Shown piece by piece: positions 4,911 to 20,624 of a stretch of 64,000 nucleotides of DNA (its first letter is position 1; every line of letters starts with the position of its first letter). This stretch comes from Alphaproteobacteria bacterium (GTDB lineage: Bacteria; Pseudomonadota; Alphaproteobacteria; UBA8366; Aestuariispiraceae): the NCBI GenBank assembly GCA_030065235.1, contig JASJDC010000002.1, positions 210,001-274,000 on the forward strand, in the 5' to 3' direction. Both the position numbers and the translations under genes were made by a program. The notes beneath the pieces are model-generated. The model was given only the letters and a program-made list of their open reading frames with translations. It searched no databases and was not told where the DNA came from.

Positions 4911-4987
<77 letters not shown>

Positions 4988-5046: not shown

Positions 5047-5408
5047 ATCTGCACTCGGGTACCATATGGGTACCGTTCGAAATCAAGCTTGGGCTAGCTC
5101 TGTTTGATCCGCGATCGCTTCATCACGAACATGAAGCTGGAAACCGGTGTGGTCGTAACGAACATGCACAAGATGAAAGCCAGACAGTTATACAAAGTCA
5201 CTGTTTTCGAGTGTTGACCGACGTTTGAGCGAAGAAGCGCAACGGATTTGAATCAGATCGTTCAAAGCAATCGGTACGGGGATATCCACGAACAAACATG
5301 CCAGAATTGCAGGGTCAGCGTGACGCGCTCCACGATCCTGATGCAGAAAGGCGACCCGTGTATCCTGTTGATCCCTGGCGCCTGAATTTCTCTTGTGGCC
5401 GTGGCGCT
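5047..5408. other. Gene-free segment with paired GGGTACC repeats
   Basis: No ORF is convincing in these 362 bases. Two direct GGGTACC copies (5057-5063 and 5068-5074, period 11) lie about 70 bp after the tRNA. Such closely spaced repeats beside a tRNA 3' end resemble arm-type sites of tyrosine integrases, so this may be the scar of an attL. No integrase and no second copy of the tRNA 3' end is seen in the window. Confidence 0.35.
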
Positions 5409-6221
5409 TTATCGCGCTCCTGCGTTACATCGAACGCTTGCGAAGAATCCGTCTAACGGCGCTTTCTGAGTGATCCGCGCCGTGGCGAGTTCGAGGTTGG
5501 TTCCGTCCATCGTGATAGCGTGATCCCCCGAGCGGAACCTGAGTTCTCCCTGCAAGTTCATCAGCCCGGTGAAGATCGGCCTGAAACCATGGCCATGATT
5601 GCTTTCTGGACCGTGGCGCGAAACGCCGTCCGTGAGGGCGGCTTCGAGTGCCTTGCCTTCGTCCGGCAGCGCGGCGTAGTCCGCGCAGCGGCGCAGGCTA
5701 TTCAGGACGCCGATGCCGCGATCGGCAATGACGAACTCGAAAGCGCCGGATTCGGCCCGGAATGCGAGAATCCCCGTTTCAGGGGCGTCGGCATGTTCAT
5801 GGATATTGTTTTCGAGTTCTTCCATCGCGGCGACCAGTTGGCCGGAGACCTTAGCAGGCAATCCCGTCACGTCCTGCCCGGCGCGCTTGGCTTTCATCAG
5901 GAAGCCGGTAAGGCGGTCGTCGCTGCCCAGTCCGTACCGGACGGCTCGGATGAATCCGGTATGCCGGTCCTGCGGGGCGATCCAGCTTTCCCTGCCCTGA
6001 TCGAGAGCCGCGATCATCGGGGCCGCGCCGTTCGATGCGAGCCAGGCGCCCGGATGCGGCATGCGTTTGCCTGCGGACAGGTGCAGCAGTTCGAGAAGCG
6101 GTCCGAGCCGTTGCGGCGCATAGGTCGTGGTGAGTTTGGACCCGTCGAGTCTGCCGCGCGCCACGGCGTAAGCGAGATCGTCTACATCGCTGAACAGGAG
6201 CTGTTTTTGCGCTACTGTCAT
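5409..6221 (-). CDS. GHKL-type ATP-binding protein (histidine-kinase-like ATPase)
   Basis: 270 residues. The Bergerat fold signatures are visible: N-box EELENNIHEHA (about 134-144), G1 box IADRGIGV (about 165-172) and a Gly/His-rich lid SNHGHGF (about 207-213). There is no dimerisation/phospho-acceptor His region and no membrane segment, so it resembles anti-sigma-factor-type ATPases (SpoIIAB/RsbW class) more than a sensor kinase. The first 120 residues match no family I recognise. It is the last gene of the module; its ATG overlaps the preceding gene by 4 nt, indicating coupled translation. A STAS-like protein at the head of the same operon is the natural partner for such an ATPase (inference). 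Confidence 0.8.
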   Translation of the reverse strand: MTVAQKQLLFSDVDDLAYAVARGRLDGSKLTTTYAPQRLGPLLELLHLSAGKRMPHPGAWLASNGAAPMIAALDQGRESWIAPQDRHTGFIRAVRYGLGSDDRLTGFLMKAKRAGQDVTGLPAKVSGQLVAAMEELENNIHEHADAPETGILAFRAESGAFEFVIADRGIGVLNSLRRCADYAALPDEGKALEAALTDGVSRHGPESNHGHGFRPIFTGLMNLQGELRFRSGDHAITMDGTNLELATARITQKAPLDGFFASVRCNAGAR

Positions 6222-7372
6222 TCGGCCGCTTGCGGGACGGGCGCATTTCCGAATACCGGATCGTAGCTCCGGCTAACGACAGACCAGTTGTGCGCCAGCA
6301 GTTCGTCGACCGGCGCGTTCGGCGGCGTTGGCGACTTTTGCCATTCGATCCTGCCGGTGTCCGTTTCGATTGCCCGCTGGCGCTTGATCGCCTTCACGAA
6401 GGAATTGGTGTCGAGCACCGTCGTGTGCGCGAATGCCGAAACGAGCCCTTGTAGGACGTTTCCGTTTGCGGCGCGAACCACGAGATGCAGCGGGCGGCCG
6501 ACCTCCGCCGCCAGCCTGGCAAGCTGGTCGGCATGCCATTCGATCCTGTCGGCCCATCCTGCGCCGGTCGCGAATTCAAAGGCCACGTGGGCCACTTCGC
6601 TGCGCCGCGCGATGTATTCCGTCCAGCGGTCCCAGTCCCGTTCGGTTCGCGCGTTCAGGTGGAGCGCGGCAGGGATGCCTTCACGCAGGAATTCCTCATG
6701 TGTGATCGCGATGCGTTTGATGCTGTGCATGTCGTCCCAGCGCGGACAGTCCGTGAACAGGCTGAAATTCGGAGTCGTTACCAGTGCGACGCCGAGATCG
6801 CGCAGCCTGCGGATTGCGTCCAGCCTGCCGAGGCCGAGACTCCACCACCGCTCAAGCGGCGCATCCTTGTCCGTCCCGGTCAAAATGACCGGGGTATCCG
6901 GCCGAACCCGGAAGGCTTCGGCGGCCGCCCTTGCATCCGCGTAGCGCTCCGTGCCGCGATGCCGGGCGATGATCCTATAGAGCGGCAGGCAGACGGTCTG
7001 CGGTGCGAACGGGGCCTCCCGCCCGTTGCCGTGATACAAGAGCGGGACCACCGAAGGCACGGCCGGTTTCGGCAGCTGCGCGGCGCGCGGAACGTTATCG
7101 AGATTGAAGCCGCCGATCTCCCGTATCCGCTGCGCGAATTCGCGAGGCTTGGTCCTGCACATCGCGTCGCAGCTCTCCGGCTGGCGGCAGCAATTGTCGA
7201 GGCAATCGAAAAAGGCGCGTCCGATGCTCAGCCCGCCGCAGGTATCGCGGTCCAGGCAGGCGCCGCAGCCGAGCGAAGGCGTTTGCCTGCTGCCGTCATG
7301 CCAAAGCTTCTTTTCCAGCCGGTGATTACGGCTTTGCTTCGGTTCCTTCCTGGCGCCCGGCGCGTTCAGCAT
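6218..7372 (-). CDS. Cys-rich DUF4417-like protein
   Basis: 384 residues. The N-terminal 35-75 region holds eight cysteines (C36, C39, C45, C57, C61, C62, C68, C72), enough for a metal or Fe-S site. The middle and C-terminal part resembles DUF4417: a TPNFSLFTD block (around 205-215), then KRIAITHEEFLREGIP and an LNARTERDWDRW segment. DUF4417 proteins occur in phages and mobile DNA and have no assigned reaction. The fold looks alpha/beta and TIM-barrel-like to me (weak inference). It overlaps the upstream gene by 7 nt and the downstream ATPase by 4 nt. The family assignment is from remembered motifs, not from a search. Confidence 0.6.
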   Translation of the reverse strand: MLNAPGARKEPKQSRNHRLEKKLWHDGSRQTPSLGCGACLDRDTCGGLSIGRAFFDCLDNCCRQPESCDAMCRTKPREFAQRIREIGGFNLDNVPRAAQLPKPAVPSVVPLLYHGNGREAPFAPQTVCLPLYRIIARHRGTERYADARAAAEAFRVRPDTPVILTGTDKDAPLERWWSLGLGRLDAIRRLRDLGVALVTTPNFSLFTDCPRWDDMHSIKRIAITHEEFLREGIPAALHLNARTERDWDRWTEYIARRSEVAHVAFEFATGAGWADRIEWHADQLARLAAEVGRPLHLVVRAANGNVLQGLVSAFAHTTVLDTNSFVKAIKRQRAIETDTGRIEWQKSPTPPNAPVDELLAHNWSVVSRSYDPVFGNAPVPQAAE

Positions 7373-7713
7373 ACCGTGATCTCCGCCGTATCCGCGATCT
7401 CGTACACCTCCTGCACCGTGCCGCAGGCTTCGCCGTAGGATTCCTTAATGGCCTCGACCAACTCCGCCGGGGGCGCTTCGAATACCGCGACGATGTCCAT
7501 GCCTCGCTGCGCTACGACCTTGCCGTCATGGAACCGGACGCACAGATCTTCGCCGGGGACAAGTTTCCGGTTCGTCCGGATACTGGCCGCATAGCTGCGC
7601 CGCTCGCTGTCCGGACGGCGGGTGAACAGGTCCGGCGTACAAAGGTCGATCCGGGACTGGTCTAGCCCCTTGTGAAACGACTTCGCAGCCTTGCGAATGA
7701 AATCAACCCCCAT
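7366..7713 (-). CDS. Small conserved-looking protein of the four-gene module
   Basis: 115 residues, soluble. It begins MGVDFIRKAAKSFHKGLDQ and has a TPDLFTRRP segment and a PGEDLCVRFHDGKVVAQRG stretch that looks like a small beta barrel, ending in TAEITVC. I know no function. It starts 1 nt after the STAS-like gene ends and overlaps the DUF4417-like gene by 7 nt, so it is translated as part of the same unit. Confidence 0.7.
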   Translation of the reverse strand: MGVDFIRKAAKSFHKGLDQSRIDLCTPDLFTRRPDSERRSYAASIRTNRKLVPGEDLCVRFHDGKVVAQRGMDIVAVFEAPPAELVEAIKESYGEACGTVQEVYEIADTAEITVC

Positions 7714-7714
7714 G

Positions 7715-8281
7715 TCAGCCCCCCAGCGGCAGCGGCTTGTATCGCTTCGCCCGGCCGTGGCTCGTTTCCATCAGCAAGCCAAGCCTGCTGAGCGAAGTGA
7801 GCCTGTTGTTCCATGCGGTCTGGCCGACACCTTCGGAGCCGTTCGCGGTGCGCATGAGTTCTCCGGCGTCGGCTTCACCGAGCTTCCTTACCAGCTCGAA
7901 GGTGATCCGCTGTTTCGGTTCCAGTTCTCCGAGAAGGCGGGAGGCGCCGGGCACTCCGTCCTTGTTCAGCGTGCAAAGCATCAGCACATCCCGCTGCGGC
8001 TCCAGCAGGACCGACAGTTCCTCCGCAATCGTATCGTTCGCATTAGCGACCACCGGGTAACAGTTCGTCCAGCGCCTGCGCACGATATCCCTAAAATCCA
8101 GGACACTTTCCCGCAGAAAGCTGGCGGTGGCGACCTCGACTCCGGCGAAATCCAGATACACGGGCTCCGGCTCTTCGGGTTCCCTCTCGATTCGTTCGAG
8201 AAGGGCGCCGAGGGCTTTTCGGCCTGTCAGCGCGCCCGCTAAGACGTCGCTATCCGTGAGGTCTCGCATTCGGATGTGCAT
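7715..8281 (-). CDS. STAS-like (DUF4325-type) and winged-helix protein
   Basis: 188 residues from the ATG at 8281. The first half has the STAS-like pattern VYLDFAGVEVATASFLRE followed by a helix and a second strand (CYPVVANAND), as in DUF4325 proteins that pair with histidine-kinase-like ATPases. The second half (from about ELEPKQRITFELVRKLGEAD) looks like a winged helix with a wing near RLGLLMETSHGRAKRYKPL. The reading frame is open back to a TTG at 8326. The ATG is preferred because it has a GGTGAAG site and because a strong promoter places the transcript start near 8305. First gene of the module. Confidence 0.75.
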   Translation of the reverse strand: MHIRMRDLTDSDVLAGALTGRKALGALLERIEREPEEPEPVYLDFAGVEVATASFLRESVLDFRDIVRRRWTNCYPVVANANDTIAEELSVLLEPQRDVLMLCTLNKDGVPGASRLLGELEPKQRITFELVRKLGEADAGELMRTANGSEGVGQTAWNNRLTSLSRLGLLMETSHGRAKRYKPLPLGG

Positions 8282-8295
8282 TTCTTCACCGTTTT

Positions 8296-8310
8296 CACGT
8301 GCATCACGTG
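8296..8310 (-). promoter_or_regulatory. Palindrome at the transcription start of the four-gene module
   Basis: CACGTGCATCACGTG, two CACGTG half-sites 9 bp apart, positioned just downstream of the -10 element and overlapping the predicted +1. A repressor bound here would block initiation. The wHTH half of the first gene product is a possible binder (inference). Confidence 0.45.
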
Positions 8311-8313
8311 ACA

Positions 8314-8342
8314 ATAGTGGGATCAATTCCCTGAGTTGTCAA
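8314..8342 (-). promoter_or_regulatory. Sigma-70-type promoter of the four-gene module
   Basis: On the minus strand: TTGACA (8342-8337), 17-bp spacer, CACTAT (8319-8314). The -35 element is perfect and the spacing ideal; the -10 element is a modest match. It drives the STAS-like gene and those behind it. Confidence 0.6.
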
Positions 8343-8783
8343 GCCCTTCGTTCTTCCTGAGACTATGGGTGCTGCCGCGACTGTTCTGGGGCGCGTCCGG
8401 CCGCCGGCCGAACCGGACTCTATTGCGCTAAGGCCGCTGGTGCGGCCTAAGCTCCACGGAGCCCGCGCTCCGCGCGGTCTCCGCCCATTCGGGTAACGAT
8501 CCCTCGCGCGGGCCCGAAGCTGACGCTTCGGGATAAGGACGCCGCCCTTCGGGCGGCGAAGTCTTTTGTTGGCCTTTCCCGGAGGCGGGGGGCGGCCGGA
8601 CACTACCTTGTAGCCCCGCCGGGGCGGCCCGCAACCGCCTCGGCTCTGGATTCGTCACAGTCCGTCTTTTCGTCCTACCAAGACAGTTGCGTCCCGCCTG
8701 ATCCGGCGGGGCTCCCGGTCGCTTACCGCCCGCCCCCTTTCCGGGGAAAGGCGCGCGCGGGGGACCAGAGGGGGCCGCAACCG
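8343..8783. other. GC-rich intergenic region with hairpins
   Basis: No gene. Several stable hairpins are present: 8431-8448 (AGGCCGC/GCGGCCT) and 8541-8557 (GCCGCCC/GGGCGGC, followed by GAAGTCTTTTG, terminator-like on the plus strand). This is the boundary between the minus-strand module and the plus-strand conjugative element, and may hold regulatory RNA or origin functions that I cannot resolve. Confidence 0.4.
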
Positions 8784-16463: not shown

Positions 16464-17633
16464 TCAGCCGCGATCAAGTTCTGTCCCGATCCGGAGTTCA
16501 TCGATGTACCGTCCGTAGGCGAAGCTACGGTCGCGTTTCTTGCCGGTCGTTTCTATCAACACATCGGCGCCGATGAGGGATTCGATGGCGCGAGTCGCCG
16601 TCGGTTTGCTGGCGCCGATCAGGGGGATCGCCGAGGACACCGTTAGGATCGGATGATTGGGCAGTTGCTCGAACAGGCGCGCCGCCGAGACGGACGACGT
16701 ATCCTGTGCAAGCACCCGCGCGCGGTCCTCGCTCACGAGGGTGAAGAGCGCGCGGGCGGAGGCAACCGCCTCATCGGCGATGGTCGCGACACCGTCGAGG
16801 AAAAAATCCGTCCATCCTTCCCAGTCGCCGTCGATGCGTACGGCCGTCAGCCGGCGGAAATACTCCTCTCGATGTCGCTTGAAGAAGAGGCTGATATAGA
16901 GCAGCGGCGCTTTCAGGAGGCCCCAATGTTCCAGCAGCAGCGCGATCAAGAGCCGGCCGATCCGACCATTGCCGTCGAGATAGGGATGGATGCTCTCGAA
17001 CTGGACATGCGCCAGCCCGATGCGCACCAGCGCCGGCAGGTCATCAGAGCCATGCAGATACTGCTCCAGATCACCGAGCAGGTCCGGCACCGTAGGTGCC
17101 GGCGGGGGAACGAAGGCTGCGTTGCCGGGACGGCTGCCGCCAATCCAATTCTGGCTGCGCCTGACTTCGCCTGGCTGCTTTCCGGCGCCGCGGGCTCCAC
17201 GCAACAAGCGCCGGTGCGCCTCGTTTAGGAGCCGCATGGAGAGCGGCAGACCATCCGCGTTCTGAAGTTCGGCACGGGCATAGGTCAGCGCATCGAGATA
17301 GTTGCAGACCTCTTCAACATCCGTGTCTAGACGCTGCGCCGTCTCAGCTTCGAAGGCCAGAAGTTCGATCAGCGTCGCCTGGGTGCCTTCGATCTGCGAC
17401 GTGATCACCGCTTCCTTGCGGACGAAGGCGTAGATGAACCAGTCAAGCGACGGCACCATGTCGCCCGCCAAGTCGAGCCGCGCGAGGGCTTGTTCGGCCG
17501 CGCGTAGCCGCTCGCCGAGCCGACCGTCGAGCGTCATTGCCGGAGCGCGGGGCGGTAAAGGCAATGGTACGAAGGCCGACACCTCCTCGCCGCCGGCGAC
17601 CGTTTGCTGATATCTGCCTGTCTTGCGCGTCAT
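16464..17633 (-). CDS. Fic-domain AMP-transferase (Fic/DOC family)
   Basis: 389 residues from the ATG at 17633, chosen over 17660 because an AGGTGGG site precedes it. The catalytic motif HPYLDGNGRIGR matches HPFx(D/E)GNGRxxR. Upstream, SQIEGT fits the inhibitory-helix motif (S/T)xxxE(G/N), so the protein appears self-inhibited (class II). The C-terminal quarter looks like a winged helix (ILTVSSAIPLIGASKPTATRAIESL). Such proteins usually AMPylate a target protein. It is antisense to all its neighbours and lies between the relaxase and the relic of a relaxase 3' end, so it is cargo. Confidence 0.9.
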   Translation of the reverse strand: MTRKTGRYQQTVAGGEEVSAFVPLPLPPRAPAMTLDGRLGERLRAAEQALARLDLAGDMVPSLDWFIYAFVRKEAVITSQIEGTQATLIELLAFEAETAQRLDTDVEEVCNYLDALTYARAELQNADGLPLSMRLLNEAHRRLLRGARGAGKQPGEVRRSQNWIGGSRPGNAAFVPPPAPTVPDLLGDLEQYLHGSDDLPALVRIGLAHVQFESIHPYLDGNGRIGRLLIALLLEHWGLLKAPLLYISLFFKRHREEYFRRLTAVRIDGDWEGWTDFFLDGVATIADEAVASARALFTLVSEDRARVLAQDTSSVSAARLFEQLPNHPILTVSSAIPLIGASKPTATRAIESLIGADVLIETTGKKRDRSFAYGRYIDELRIGTELDRG

Positions 17634-17660
17634 GCCGCCCAACCCACCTGCGCCATCCAC

Positions 17661-18050: not shown

Positions 18051-20624
18051 ATGCCTTTTCGACCAGTTACTTCATCAAAGAAGACCTACGATACGCCCGT
18101 CGACGTCATTGTCGATACACGGCCGCGCACGATCGATGCGCCTTATGAGCATCAGGCAACCCTTCTGCGCACTTATGCTGCAGAGTGCGCCGCCGAGGCT
18201 GATGTGGCCATCCAGGGGGCGACAGGAAGTGGCAAGACCCTAGTAGCTCTTGCTATCGCGGAATGGCGCCGCCGTACGCGCGAAGAACGGAGCGTCTACC
18301 TCTGTCCCACTAAGCAACTTGTCCATCAGGTCTGCGCGTTCGCCAATCAGCAACTTGGTTTCAAGGCAGAGGCGTTTGTTGGGTCGCGTGCCCAATTTCT
18401 CCCCGCCGCTCAGGCTGCTTGGCGAACTGGTGAAGCAATTGGGGTTACAACCTACAGCGCACTTTTCAACACCAATCCATTCTTTGAAGCCCCACACTTC
18501 ATTGTCGTCGACGACGCCCATGCTGCTGACCAGCATATAGGTGACCATTGGTCGGTTCTCGTGACGAAACGGGAAGTGCCGGGCCTGTTTGGCGAACTCG
18601 CCGCCATCCTCGGTGCACTGCTGCCCAACGATGATGCTGCGCGGATGACCGAGACGCCACGCGCGTTGTCTGACAGTCTATGGACGCAGTTGATACCGGC
18701 ACCTTTATTGTGGCCTCATGTGGACGCAATCACGGCGGCCCTTGATGAAGCCGAAGCTGGTACGGACCTCTATTTTCGATGGTCAGTTCTCAAAGGACAG
18801 TTGCGCGCCTGCCAAGTTTTCGTCAGTCCGCATGAGATACTCTTCCGGCCCACGCTTCCGCCCACGTTTAGCCACCAGGGCTTCGATGGGGCCAATCAAC
18901 GCCTTTACGTATCCGCAACTTTGGGGCGTGGCGGCGAGTTAGAGCGCCTATCTGGACGATCAAGGATCAAACGGCTCGAAGCGGCGGAAGGATGGAACAG
19001 CCACGGCGTGGGGCGCCGGTTCTTTCTATTTCCAGATGCCTCGCTTGAGGCCGATGACGCCGCGGAGGTGGCGGACAGTCTCATTGAGGCGCAAGGTCGC
19101 GCCCTCATTCTGACCACAAAAGACCGCGAGGCGCAGGTGGTCAAAAAGCGAATCGAAACGCGTCTTCCAGAACATGTGCTGGTTAGCGCACTTGAGATCG
19201 AGGCATCAAAAGACGCTTTTGTCTGCAAAGAAAAAGCTGTCGCCATCCTCGCCAACCGCTACGACGGTATCGATTTTCCGGGCAAGGATTGTCGCATTTT
19301 AATCGTTGAGGGCCGACCTGGCGGCGCTAGCATTATGGAGCGATTCCTTGCTGACAAGCTCGGTGCTCGGGCGTTGTTTGCTGAGCGTGTCCGCACTCGA
19401 ATTGTTCAAGCGTTTGGTCGATGCACGCGCTCCGCCACTGATCACGCATTGGTCATTCCGGTCGGAGGGAAGCTGATTGATGAGCTCTACTTAAGGGAAC
19501 ACCGTGAGTTGTTCGACGCTGATATGCAGGCGGAGATAAAGTTCGGTGAAACCCAGTCGAGCAATCAGACGACCAGTGGCCTCATTGAACTAGCTGAAGC
19601 ATTCTTCGCGCAAGGCGACGTCTGGCGTAAGGCTGAGGAAGCAATAGTGGCGCTCCGCGACGACATGACAGAAATTGTTCCAGAATATCTTGACGCGCTC
19701 GCCGTAGCAGCAGAGCACGAAGTTGCTTATGTGAAGGCCATGTGGCGGGGTGATGCCGCTCGTGCCACGACATCCGCCTCACGAGTAGTCGAGGCACTAG
19801 CGGGCGGACAGGAGCTTCGTGGATACAGGGCTTATTGGGAGTATCTGTGGGGGTGTGCTTGCGCGCTTGATGCAGAAGATCGTTGCGAAGTAGCCGAGAC
19901 GGCAATGGAGCGGTTTCGCGCGGCGAAAAACGTCGGCGGCGTAAGGTGGCTTGAGCGCCTAGAGACAGCAAAGGGCGATATTAACGTGCCAGCTGACCCG
20001 GCCGAAGATACCGAGGCTATCACCGCCCTTCAGACAGAGTTGCACGATATGGGACTACGGCGGCATAGAATATTCACAACGCGAACTATGACAATCCGCG
20101 AGGGCCTTTCGAACACCGATAATGCAGATCGTTTTGAAGCCGCGCATAAGGACCTCGGGACACTTCTCGGCTTTTTGTCGGAGAATCCAACTACTGATGG
20201 TGCGCCAGATCCTTATTGGATAGTTGGGGAGCGTCTTTGTTTCGTCTTCGAGGACTATTCGGAGGCCAGCGAAGATACGGAGTTGCCGATAAAAAAGGCA
20301 CGCCAGGCGGCTCTTCATGTGAAGTGGCTCCGCGAGAACGAGGGTCGCATTAGTGCTGACACTGAAGTCATCCCGATCCTCATGACGAATGCTGTTTGCA
20401 GTGGGGACAAGGTTCGGCCATTCCTTGACGAAGTTATCGTCTGGCCACTGAGTGATTTTTTAATGTGGTCAAGTCGCGCGCTTGACGTCGTTCGCGATGT
20501 GAGAGCACGCCTTGGCGAAGAAGACGATTTGTTTTGGAGAACCGACGCGATGCGTGCTCTACGGGACGTGCAGGCGACGCCGACATCTCTTCTCGCCAAG
20601 CTGCGGGCTCTTGCGCGGCCTTGA
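18051..20624 (+). CDS. Superfamily 2 (XPD/DinG-like) DEAD-box helicase
   Basis: 857 residues. Walker A GATGSGKT (56-63), box II VVDDAHA (152-158), motif III VSAT (287-290), the XPD/DinG-like NRYDGIDFPG (402-411) and motif VI VQAFGRCTRS (452-461) are all present. I see no four-cysteine Fe-S insertion as in true XPD/DinG. The last 350 residues are of unknown fold. The gene is visibly poorer in G+C than the tra/trb genes and sits between the relaxase relic and traG, so it is acquired cargo. A role in genome defence or DNA repair is plausible but unproven. Confidence 0.85.
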   Translation: MPFRPVTSSKKTYDTPVDVIVDTRPRTIDAPYEHQATLLRTYAAECAAEADVAIQGATGSGKTLVALAIAEWRRRTREERSVYLCPTKQLVHQVCAFANQQLGFKAEAFVGSRAQFLPAAQAAWRTGEAIGVTTYSALFNTNPFFEAPHFIVVDDAHAADQHIGDHWSVLVTKREVPGLFGELAAILGALLPNDDAARMTETPRALSDSLWTQLIPAPLLWPHVDAITAALDEAEAGTDLYFRWSVLKGQLRACQVFVSPHEILFRPTLPPTFSHQGFDGANQRLYVSATLGRGGELERLSGRSRIKRLEAAEGWNSHGVGRRFFLFPDASLEADDAAEVADSLIEAQGRALILTTKDREAQVVKKRIETRLPEHVLVSALEIEASKDAFVCKEKAVAILANRYDGIDFPGKDCRILIVEGRPGGASIMERFLADKLGARALFAERVRTRIVQAFGRCTRSATDHALVIPVGGKLIDELYLREHRELFDADMQAEIKFGETQSSNQTTSGLIELAEAFFAQGDVWRKAEEAIVALRDDMTEIVPEYLDALAVAAEHEVAYVKAMWRGDAARATTSASRVVEALAGGQELRGYRAYWEYLWGCACALDAEDRCEVAETAMERFRAAKNVGGVRWLERLETAKGDINVPADPAEDTEAITALQTELHDMGLRRHRIFTTRTMTIREGLSNTDNADRFEAAHKDLGTLLGFLSENPTTDGAPDPYWIVGERLCFVFEDYSEASEDTELPIKKARQAALHVKWLRENEGRISADTEVIPILMTNAVCSGDKVRPFLDEVIVWPLSDFLMWSSRALDVVRDVRARLGEEDDLFWRTDAMRALRDVQATPTSLLAKLRALARP

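Follow-up and report, generated by a model that had tools for sequence, protein, structure and literature searches.

A four-gene operon with relatives of the CapK/CapS switch and an undescribed payload, candidate for a mobile, DNA-damage-released defence or stress module

The GHKL kinase CapK is activated by single-stranded DNA (ssDNA) and phosphorylates CapS at Ser54, which splits the CapS dimer, and CapS, a STAS protein with a winged helix-turn-helix (wHTH) domain, represses its own promoter together with the next immune operon (PMC13373217, Chambers et al. 2026, EMBO J, June 2026; PDB 9Z71-9Z73). According to the main text of that work 348 of the 443 CapKS relatives control immune operons, all 443 reported capK genes directly precede capS, the wide palindrome of CapS reads TTAA-N10-TTAA, and a related system, VapKSC, in which VapS ends in a short C-terminal region, controls a PIN toxin (PMC13373217). 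Here we describe a compact operon of four genes, called the module below, on 64,000 nucleotides of an alphaproteobacterial genome (GCA_030065235.1, contig JASJDC010000002.1, positions 210,001 to 274,000; this whole stretch is the window). The outer two genes encode a STAS and a GHKL protein, which by their sequences are relatives of CapS and CapK, and the inner two encode a small protein and a cysteine-rich, DUF4417-like protein.

The four-gene operon is real and is confirmed to be more than a chance arrangement, because the same gene set returns in 15 distinct loci: the window, L002-L011 and L017-L020, of which five (L011 and L017-L020) were held out of the profiles. Three Aminobacter plasmid records that match identically were counted as one locus, L044 is the same contig as L011 (viral contigs with a GHKL gene), and L045 was left out, as its contig begins inside the GHKL gene and the neighbours cannot be judged. 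Profile searches found the STAS, small and DUF4417-like genes in all 15 loci, invariably in this order and on one strand, and the GHKL gene in 14, the contig of L020 ending past the DUF gene. In 8 loci (window, L002-L005, L008, L009, L011) the GHKL gene closes the series in the common orientation; it is convergent in 5 (L006, L007, L017-L019), where the 3' ends overlap by 54-159 nucleotides (nt), and first in L010. That this gene moves yet stays in company suggests a functional link. The preliminary description of this DNA, made from the window alone, had tied its claim of novelty to a gene order that is kept beyond this genome; the set indeed recurs far outside it, but the order is only partly kept, as the GHKL gene moves and flips. 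Its account of the tight spacing of the four minus-strand open reading frames is correct, with a 1-nt gap (7715/7713), a 7-nt overlap (7366-7372) and a 4-nt overlap (6218-6221).

The hosts named among the loci include Alphaproteobacteria, Nitrospinae, Polyangiaceae and Planctomycetota. Relatives of the cysteine-rich protein were found in 8 plasmid records, 3 genome contigs and 1 viral contig; they occur in 2 of 385 genomes of the class sample, the source genome included (1 further), and in 5 of 398 of the phylum sample, two of them counted before (3 more). Searches with the STAS protein and with the DUF protein independently reach the same 8 plasmid records, and the GHKL search reaches these and 7 others (five from Bradyrhizobium, all of them partial, and two fragments from S. 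meliloti; one of each kind was inspected). The genome of 4.18 Mb carries a single copy of the module, and in a sample of 39 related genomes only the source genome has it; it is therefore accessory. A GHKL relative was seen on the plasmid of Bradyrhizobium sp. CW1 (L021:7839-8609), in a 16.6-kb stretch with no STAS, small or DUF gene; either this copy is degraded or the kinase serves another use there. On two rhizobial plasmids the annotated genes behind DUF4417 (L006:9093-9992 and L007:9072-9911) run antisense to the true GHKL gene; the latter shares 159 nt at its 3' end with the DUF4417 gene there.

The STAS protein matches DUF4325 over the Pfam cut-off (E 1.7e-5), and the GHKL protein matches phrog_3364 (E 2.9e-10) and HATPase_c_2 (E 5.3e-5; 23.7 bits, below the cut-off of 27.4 bits), which upholds both family assignments made earlier. 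Profile-to-profile comparison by hhalign with a set of three CapS-type and two CapK proteins joined the module STAS protein to CapS at E 9.1e-8 over 170 columns, covering both the STAS and the wHTH domain, and the module GHKL protein to CapK at E 7.4e-8 over 82 columns, the GHKL part only. Ser69 of the STAS protein (P0001 numbering) aligns with CapS Ser54 and N139 of the GHKL protein with CapK N218, each invariant in 10 of 10 members, and CapK proteins also match phrog_3364. Among PDB sequences the STAS profile ranked 9z71 at the top (E 0.036) and 9z72 in third place (E 0.67), weak matches to the CapS structures of about 185 amino acids (aa); the GHKL profile retrieved no PDB sequence at E<=0.1. 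The two proteins had been presented as halves of a partner switch within a system of undescribed composition. They do resemble a kinase with its STAS partner, but the switch is a relative of CapK and CapS and thus not without description, whereas the two bracketed genes are still new; in the literature searched (open-licence PMC papers) no description of the four-gene set was found. A CapS-type STAS-wHTH gene was observed on a Pseudomonas silesiensis plasmid as well (L043:3989-4534), where a kinase gene could not be recognised immediately upstream of it.

The promoter region of the STAS gene harbors a conserved palindrome. The gene most likely starts, as far as its sequence indicates, at the ATG 8281-8279, which gives 188 aa; we preferred this codon to the TTG at 8326 because the close relative L002 starts at the same methionine and because the putative operator sits between both codons. 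The rejected TTG falls in the promoter region. Near the STAS gene TTGAC is present in 14 of the 15 loci. In the window the -35 box is perfect, but the -10 element (CACTAT, 8314-8319) is poor and a consensus scan of positions 5050-8700 returned 0 promoter-like sites, so that the strong promoter proposed earlier is not sustained. When all inverted 4-mers with gaps of 0-15 were searched for upstream of the 15 STAS genes, the top pattern was TCAC-N9-GTGA (9 loci), and no pattern rose above 3 in 20 dinucleotide shuffles. With spacers of 8 or 9 the palindrome occurs in 12 of the 15 loci, against a mean of 0.055 and a maximum of 1 in 200 shuffles. It begins 21-34 nt behind TTGAC (31 nt in six of the 12 loci), and thus lies about the transcription start. 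The N9 form is the specific one, with its sole match in the window at this place; the module loci, 289,784 bases in all, contain 10 N9 matches, all at module promoters, and 203,662 bases of other loci contain 3. The N8 form rescues three loci but turns up at six other sites as well, of which the window has two. L006 and L007 have a different palindrome, and L010 has a different half-site near the start, TTCTTAG-N9-CTAAGAA.

This conserved palindrome also bears on the possibility that the module is a toxin-antitoxin system like VapKSC, in which the STAS protein would block the TIM-barrel (DUF4417-like) protein directly, phosphorylation would free this toxin and DNA binding would serve autoregulation only. 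The tight linkage of the four genes and the precedent of VapKSC, a documented relative with such logic (PMC13373217), speak for it. However, the module STAS protein possesses a full wHTH and a conserved putative operator, unlike VapS with its short C-terminal region, and there is no PIN domain among the four proteins; we therefore regard this explanation as distinctly unlikely.

Table 1. Positions of the module genes, their control elements and the neighbouring tRNA gene in the window.
Feature	Position	Strand	Length	Basis or remark
CapS-like STAS-wHTH repressor gene	7715..8281	-	188 aa	DUF4325 match and hhalign with CapS
Small HIRAN-like protein gene	7366..7713	-	115 aa	Predicted barrel at residues 32-115; structure model
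Eight-cysteine, TGT-fold TIM-barrel (DUF4417-like) gene	6218..7372	-	384 aa	Model, Foldseek/VIA, invariant Cys
CapK-like GHKL kinase gene	5409..6221	-	270 aa	N-box E135/N139/H143; DxGxG 167-171; phrog_3364, hhalign with CapK
-35 box TTGACA	8337..8342	-		Perfect consensus
Putative operator TCACGTGCATCACGTGA (TCAC-N9-GTGA)	8295..8311	.		Begins 31 nt after TTGAC and covers the likely start of transcription
tRNA-Met (CAT)	4911..4987	+		Neighbour, outside the module

The small protein is probably HIRAN-like, as judged from its model (m9a19d5eca37c), in which residues 32-115 form a small beta-barrel. In the VIA comparison 3k2y scored Z 9.0 and HamB, HLTF and Rad5 scored Z 7.0-7.2 over 72-87 residues, the next match having 5.1, where values of Z below 8 may be due to chance. 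Sequence matches of this protein in the PDB (E 0.04 to 1, to a biofilm protein, P-II, staphylococcal nuclease and others) were dismissed as noise.

Eight cysteines at residues 36-72 of the DUF4417-like protein, reported already from the window, occur without variation in every one of the 10 aligned members; nearly all of them lie in the poorly modelled part. The model (md2c7e4ad6027), built from an alignment of five sequences, has a mean pLDDT (predicted local distance difference test) of 69.6 with residues 1-70 below 50, and its later part is a predicted TIM barrel. Foldseek ranked tRNA-guanine transglycosylase (TGT) first (E 2.3e-5, TM ~0.4), all 50 VIA matches listed are TGT chains (Z 16.1-17.2 over 257-266 residues at 8-10% identity) with no other TIM barrels among them, and viral matches include queuine tRNA-ribosyltransferases. 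A link to TGT by sequence was tried and rejected (hhalign with five bacterial TGTs, E 0.32; best E in the PDB sequence search, 0.056). The likeness of the modelled protein to TGT is thus structural only. TGT has its catalytic nucleophile, an Asp, on the last strand of the barrel, and a C-terminal zinc site of three Cys and one His. In the module proteins the putative place of the nucleophile, by strand order D321, is occupied by D in 6 of the 10 members and by E in the other 4, and the window protein has no conserved Cys past residue 72 and none after residue 321; the zinc site is therefore absent. Invariant in all 10 members are D170, E174, N202, H238, D246 and E266. A tRNA-Ala (GGC) called by ARAGORN antisense within this gene (window 6481-6562, plus strand) is probably spurious.

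The DUF4417 label holds insofar as NCBI annotation names most homologues so and the protein aligns with its namesakes from Streptomyces, but not in terms of Pfam, where PF14386 had no match at E<=1 in any of the 8 members scanned. The Pfam model is silent even in 29 relatives, as it is in all 14 control genomes, and is therefore uninformative on absence. A protein of an Azobacteroides phage, to which its paper gives the name DUF4417, matched nothing in Pfam at E<=0.01 and was dropped. With the Planctomyces member as query 34 further plasmid records were found, 30 of them from Streptomyces. Three Streptomyces/Kitasatospora proteins keep 7 of the 8 Cys and D170, E174, W177, N202 and D246 in the alignment and have Ser at residue 321. 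Their genes follow a ParB_N gene with a 4-nt overlap, beside replication-relaxation genes (L052:3505-5966, L053:3487-5921, L054:3622-6047). There were no STAS or GHKL genes in the examined stretches of these 3 of the 34 non-module plasmid records.

Phage DUF4417 domains have been described as fusions with ParB-CTPase folds (PMC12704722), and DpdA, a TGT homologue, is described as working with the ParB-like DpdB (PMC12839542). A role of the TIM-barrel protein on nucleic acids is plausible because of the TGT-like fold, the ParB_N neighbours, these fusions and the parallel with DpdA and DpdB. One could go further and propose DNA marking of the Dpd kind, where the TGT-fold protein would place a modified base in DNA under regulation by the other module genes, and the predicted fold together with the ParB-linked relatives and fusions would agree with this. 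Yet the module itself has no ParB-type gene, the residue at the putative place of the nucleophile varies (D or E in the module, Ser in the three Streptomyces/Kitasatospora proteins) and hhalign with TGT gives no match, which makes DNA marking highly unlikely.

The surroundings of the module were examined for defence genes. The flanks contain type III restriction-modification (RM) at L002, type ISP RM at L003, HerA with SIR2 at L017, OLD-TOPRIM and PemK at L018 and a partial PD-T4-1/TmtA match (E 1e-15 to 1e-17) at L020; by annotation, they contain DUF499-DUF1156-SNF2 at L005, a KwaB-like gene at L006, OLD-TOPRIM with a UvrD-like helicase at L007, NACHT at L009 and a RelE/ParE pair at L008. Defence-type genes thus lie in the flanks of 9 of the 15 loci, or 10 if the toxin-antitoxin pair of L008 is counted; at L004, L010, L011 and L019, where few proteins were scanned singly, no defence gene was assigned. 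In a batch PADLOC search the 79 flank proteins from 8 loci matched 189 families, KwaA and KwaB included (with the locus not assigned), and 89 proteins from six displaced control stretches in three of these genomes matched 9 families, whereby PADLOC models overlap and families do not equal proteins. The control contains AbiD and PDC-S04, and mad3 and mad8 match in both sets. Enrichment of defence genes around the module is likely, and many copies do lie near such genes, in line with the earlier suggestion of a defence device.

A maintenance or stress operon of plasmids and islands, without a role in defence, would explain the defence neighbours by the shared islands. This would suit the loci flanked by conjugation or metabolic genes instead of defence genes, as well as the PADLOC matches of the control stretches, but it fits poorly with the CapKS relatives, most of which govern immune operons (348 of 443; PMC13373217), and we consider it unlikely.

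In the window itself the module lies between the tRNA-Met gene and conjugation genes, which begin at about 8.9 kb. This setting was described correctly, but insertion of the element at the tRNA is unsupported, because the 25-base 3' end of tRNA-Met occurs once in the genome by exact search, with no second copy in the window at up to 3 mismatches, and none of the 7 tyrosine integrase matches of the genome falls in the window. A helicase of the conjugative region (window 18051-20624, plus strand), 10 kb away, matches the phage-defence candidate PDC-S28 of PADLOC (E 7e-97), and a Fic-domain protein (window 16464-17660, minus strand) is encoded in inverted orientation among the conjugation genes.

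Taken together, we slightly favour the view that the module is a mobile, self-repressed defence or stress operon that is released by DNA damage; its support is the gene set, the homology with CapS and CapK, the palindrome in 12 of the 15 loci, the CapKS mechanism as measured in PMC13373217 and the defence flanks. By analogy with CapKS, a dimer of the CapS-like STAS-wHTH protein would sit on TCAC-N9-GTGA over the transcription start and keep the operon low. Phage infection or other damage would produce ssDNA as the signal, upon which the CapK-like GHKL kinase would phosphorylate the invariant STAS serine, split the dimer and derepress the operon. The payload would then be the HIRAN-like protein, probably binding DNA ends, and the TGT-fold TIM-barrel protein with its cysteine cluster, probably acting on nucleic acid, with a possible benefit against phages. 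A more specific proposal is that of an immune system in which the ssDNA-activated kinase frees the STAS repressor and thereby switches on a TGT-fold enzyme for the exchange or removal of bases, be it in phage DNA or in host tRNA, the HIRAN protein holding ssDNA ends as a guide and the eight cysteines forming a metal or Fe-S site. This proposal is doubtful; if true, it would be the first effector of base-exchange type under a CapKS-type switch.

Several observations weigh against a damage-released switch of this kind. The N-terminal HTH and STAS domains of CapK and its W68 are not recognised in the module GHKL protein, which at 270 aa is shorter than CapK (368 aa), and we call it CapK-like for the reason that these N-terminal parts are unrecognised; the column nearest to the ssDNA-stacking W68, a putative equivalence, holds W in 7 of 10 module GHKL proteins. 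The described order is capK, capS, immune operon, whereas here the CapS-like gene comes first and the kinase gene is last, moved or flipped. TCAC-N8/9-GTGA is missing in 3 of the 15 loci, its N9 form occurs 28 times in the genome (3 times for the pattern read backwards), and the 6 GHKL genes that have a promoter of their own showed no operator in front of them. Moreover, 7 of the 15 GHKL-positive plasmid records gave no STAS or DUF match in our searches, PADLOC and NCBIfam gave no match to any of the four proteins, and searches of phage records yielded no relatives for either the DUF or the GHKL protein.

The module resembles CapK and CapS in the combination of a GHKL kinase with a STAS-wHTH protein, in the invariant serine and asparagine, in the palindrome at the promoter, which has nearly the same spacing as that of CapS but the half-site TCAC in place of TTAA, and in the defence surroundings. 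It differs in that its payload lies inside the operon and is not among the payloads named in the main text of PMC13373217, from which the terms DUF4417, HIRAN, transglycosylase and DUF4325 are absent, and in a kinase with no recognisable HTH or STAS part. With VapKSC it shares a CapK-like kinase, a STAS protein and an effector in one operon, but it has a wHTH on the STAS protein, two payload genes and no PIN match. The small protein has a predicted fold that may be akin to the small beta-barrel of the HIRAN domain of HLTF, Rad5 and HamB of Hachiman, but stands alone and has no sequence match above noise. The large one shares with TGT and DpdA the predicted TIM-barrel fold and differs from them by the additional N-terminal cluster of eight cysteines, the lack of the zinc cysteines and a varying residue at the putative nucleophile position. 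By alignment it is of the same family as the DUF4417 proteins of Streptomyces plasmids, which adjoin ParB_N and stand apart from STAS and GHKL genes in the examined stretches, and for these proteins it offers a hypothesis of a TGT fold, a cysteine cluster and a nucleic-acid target. The HIRAN-like and the TGT-fold protein are thus an undescribed payload for a CapKS-type switch, and if our view is true, the damage switch of CapK and CapS is wider than described in gene order, operator, phyla and payload chemistry.

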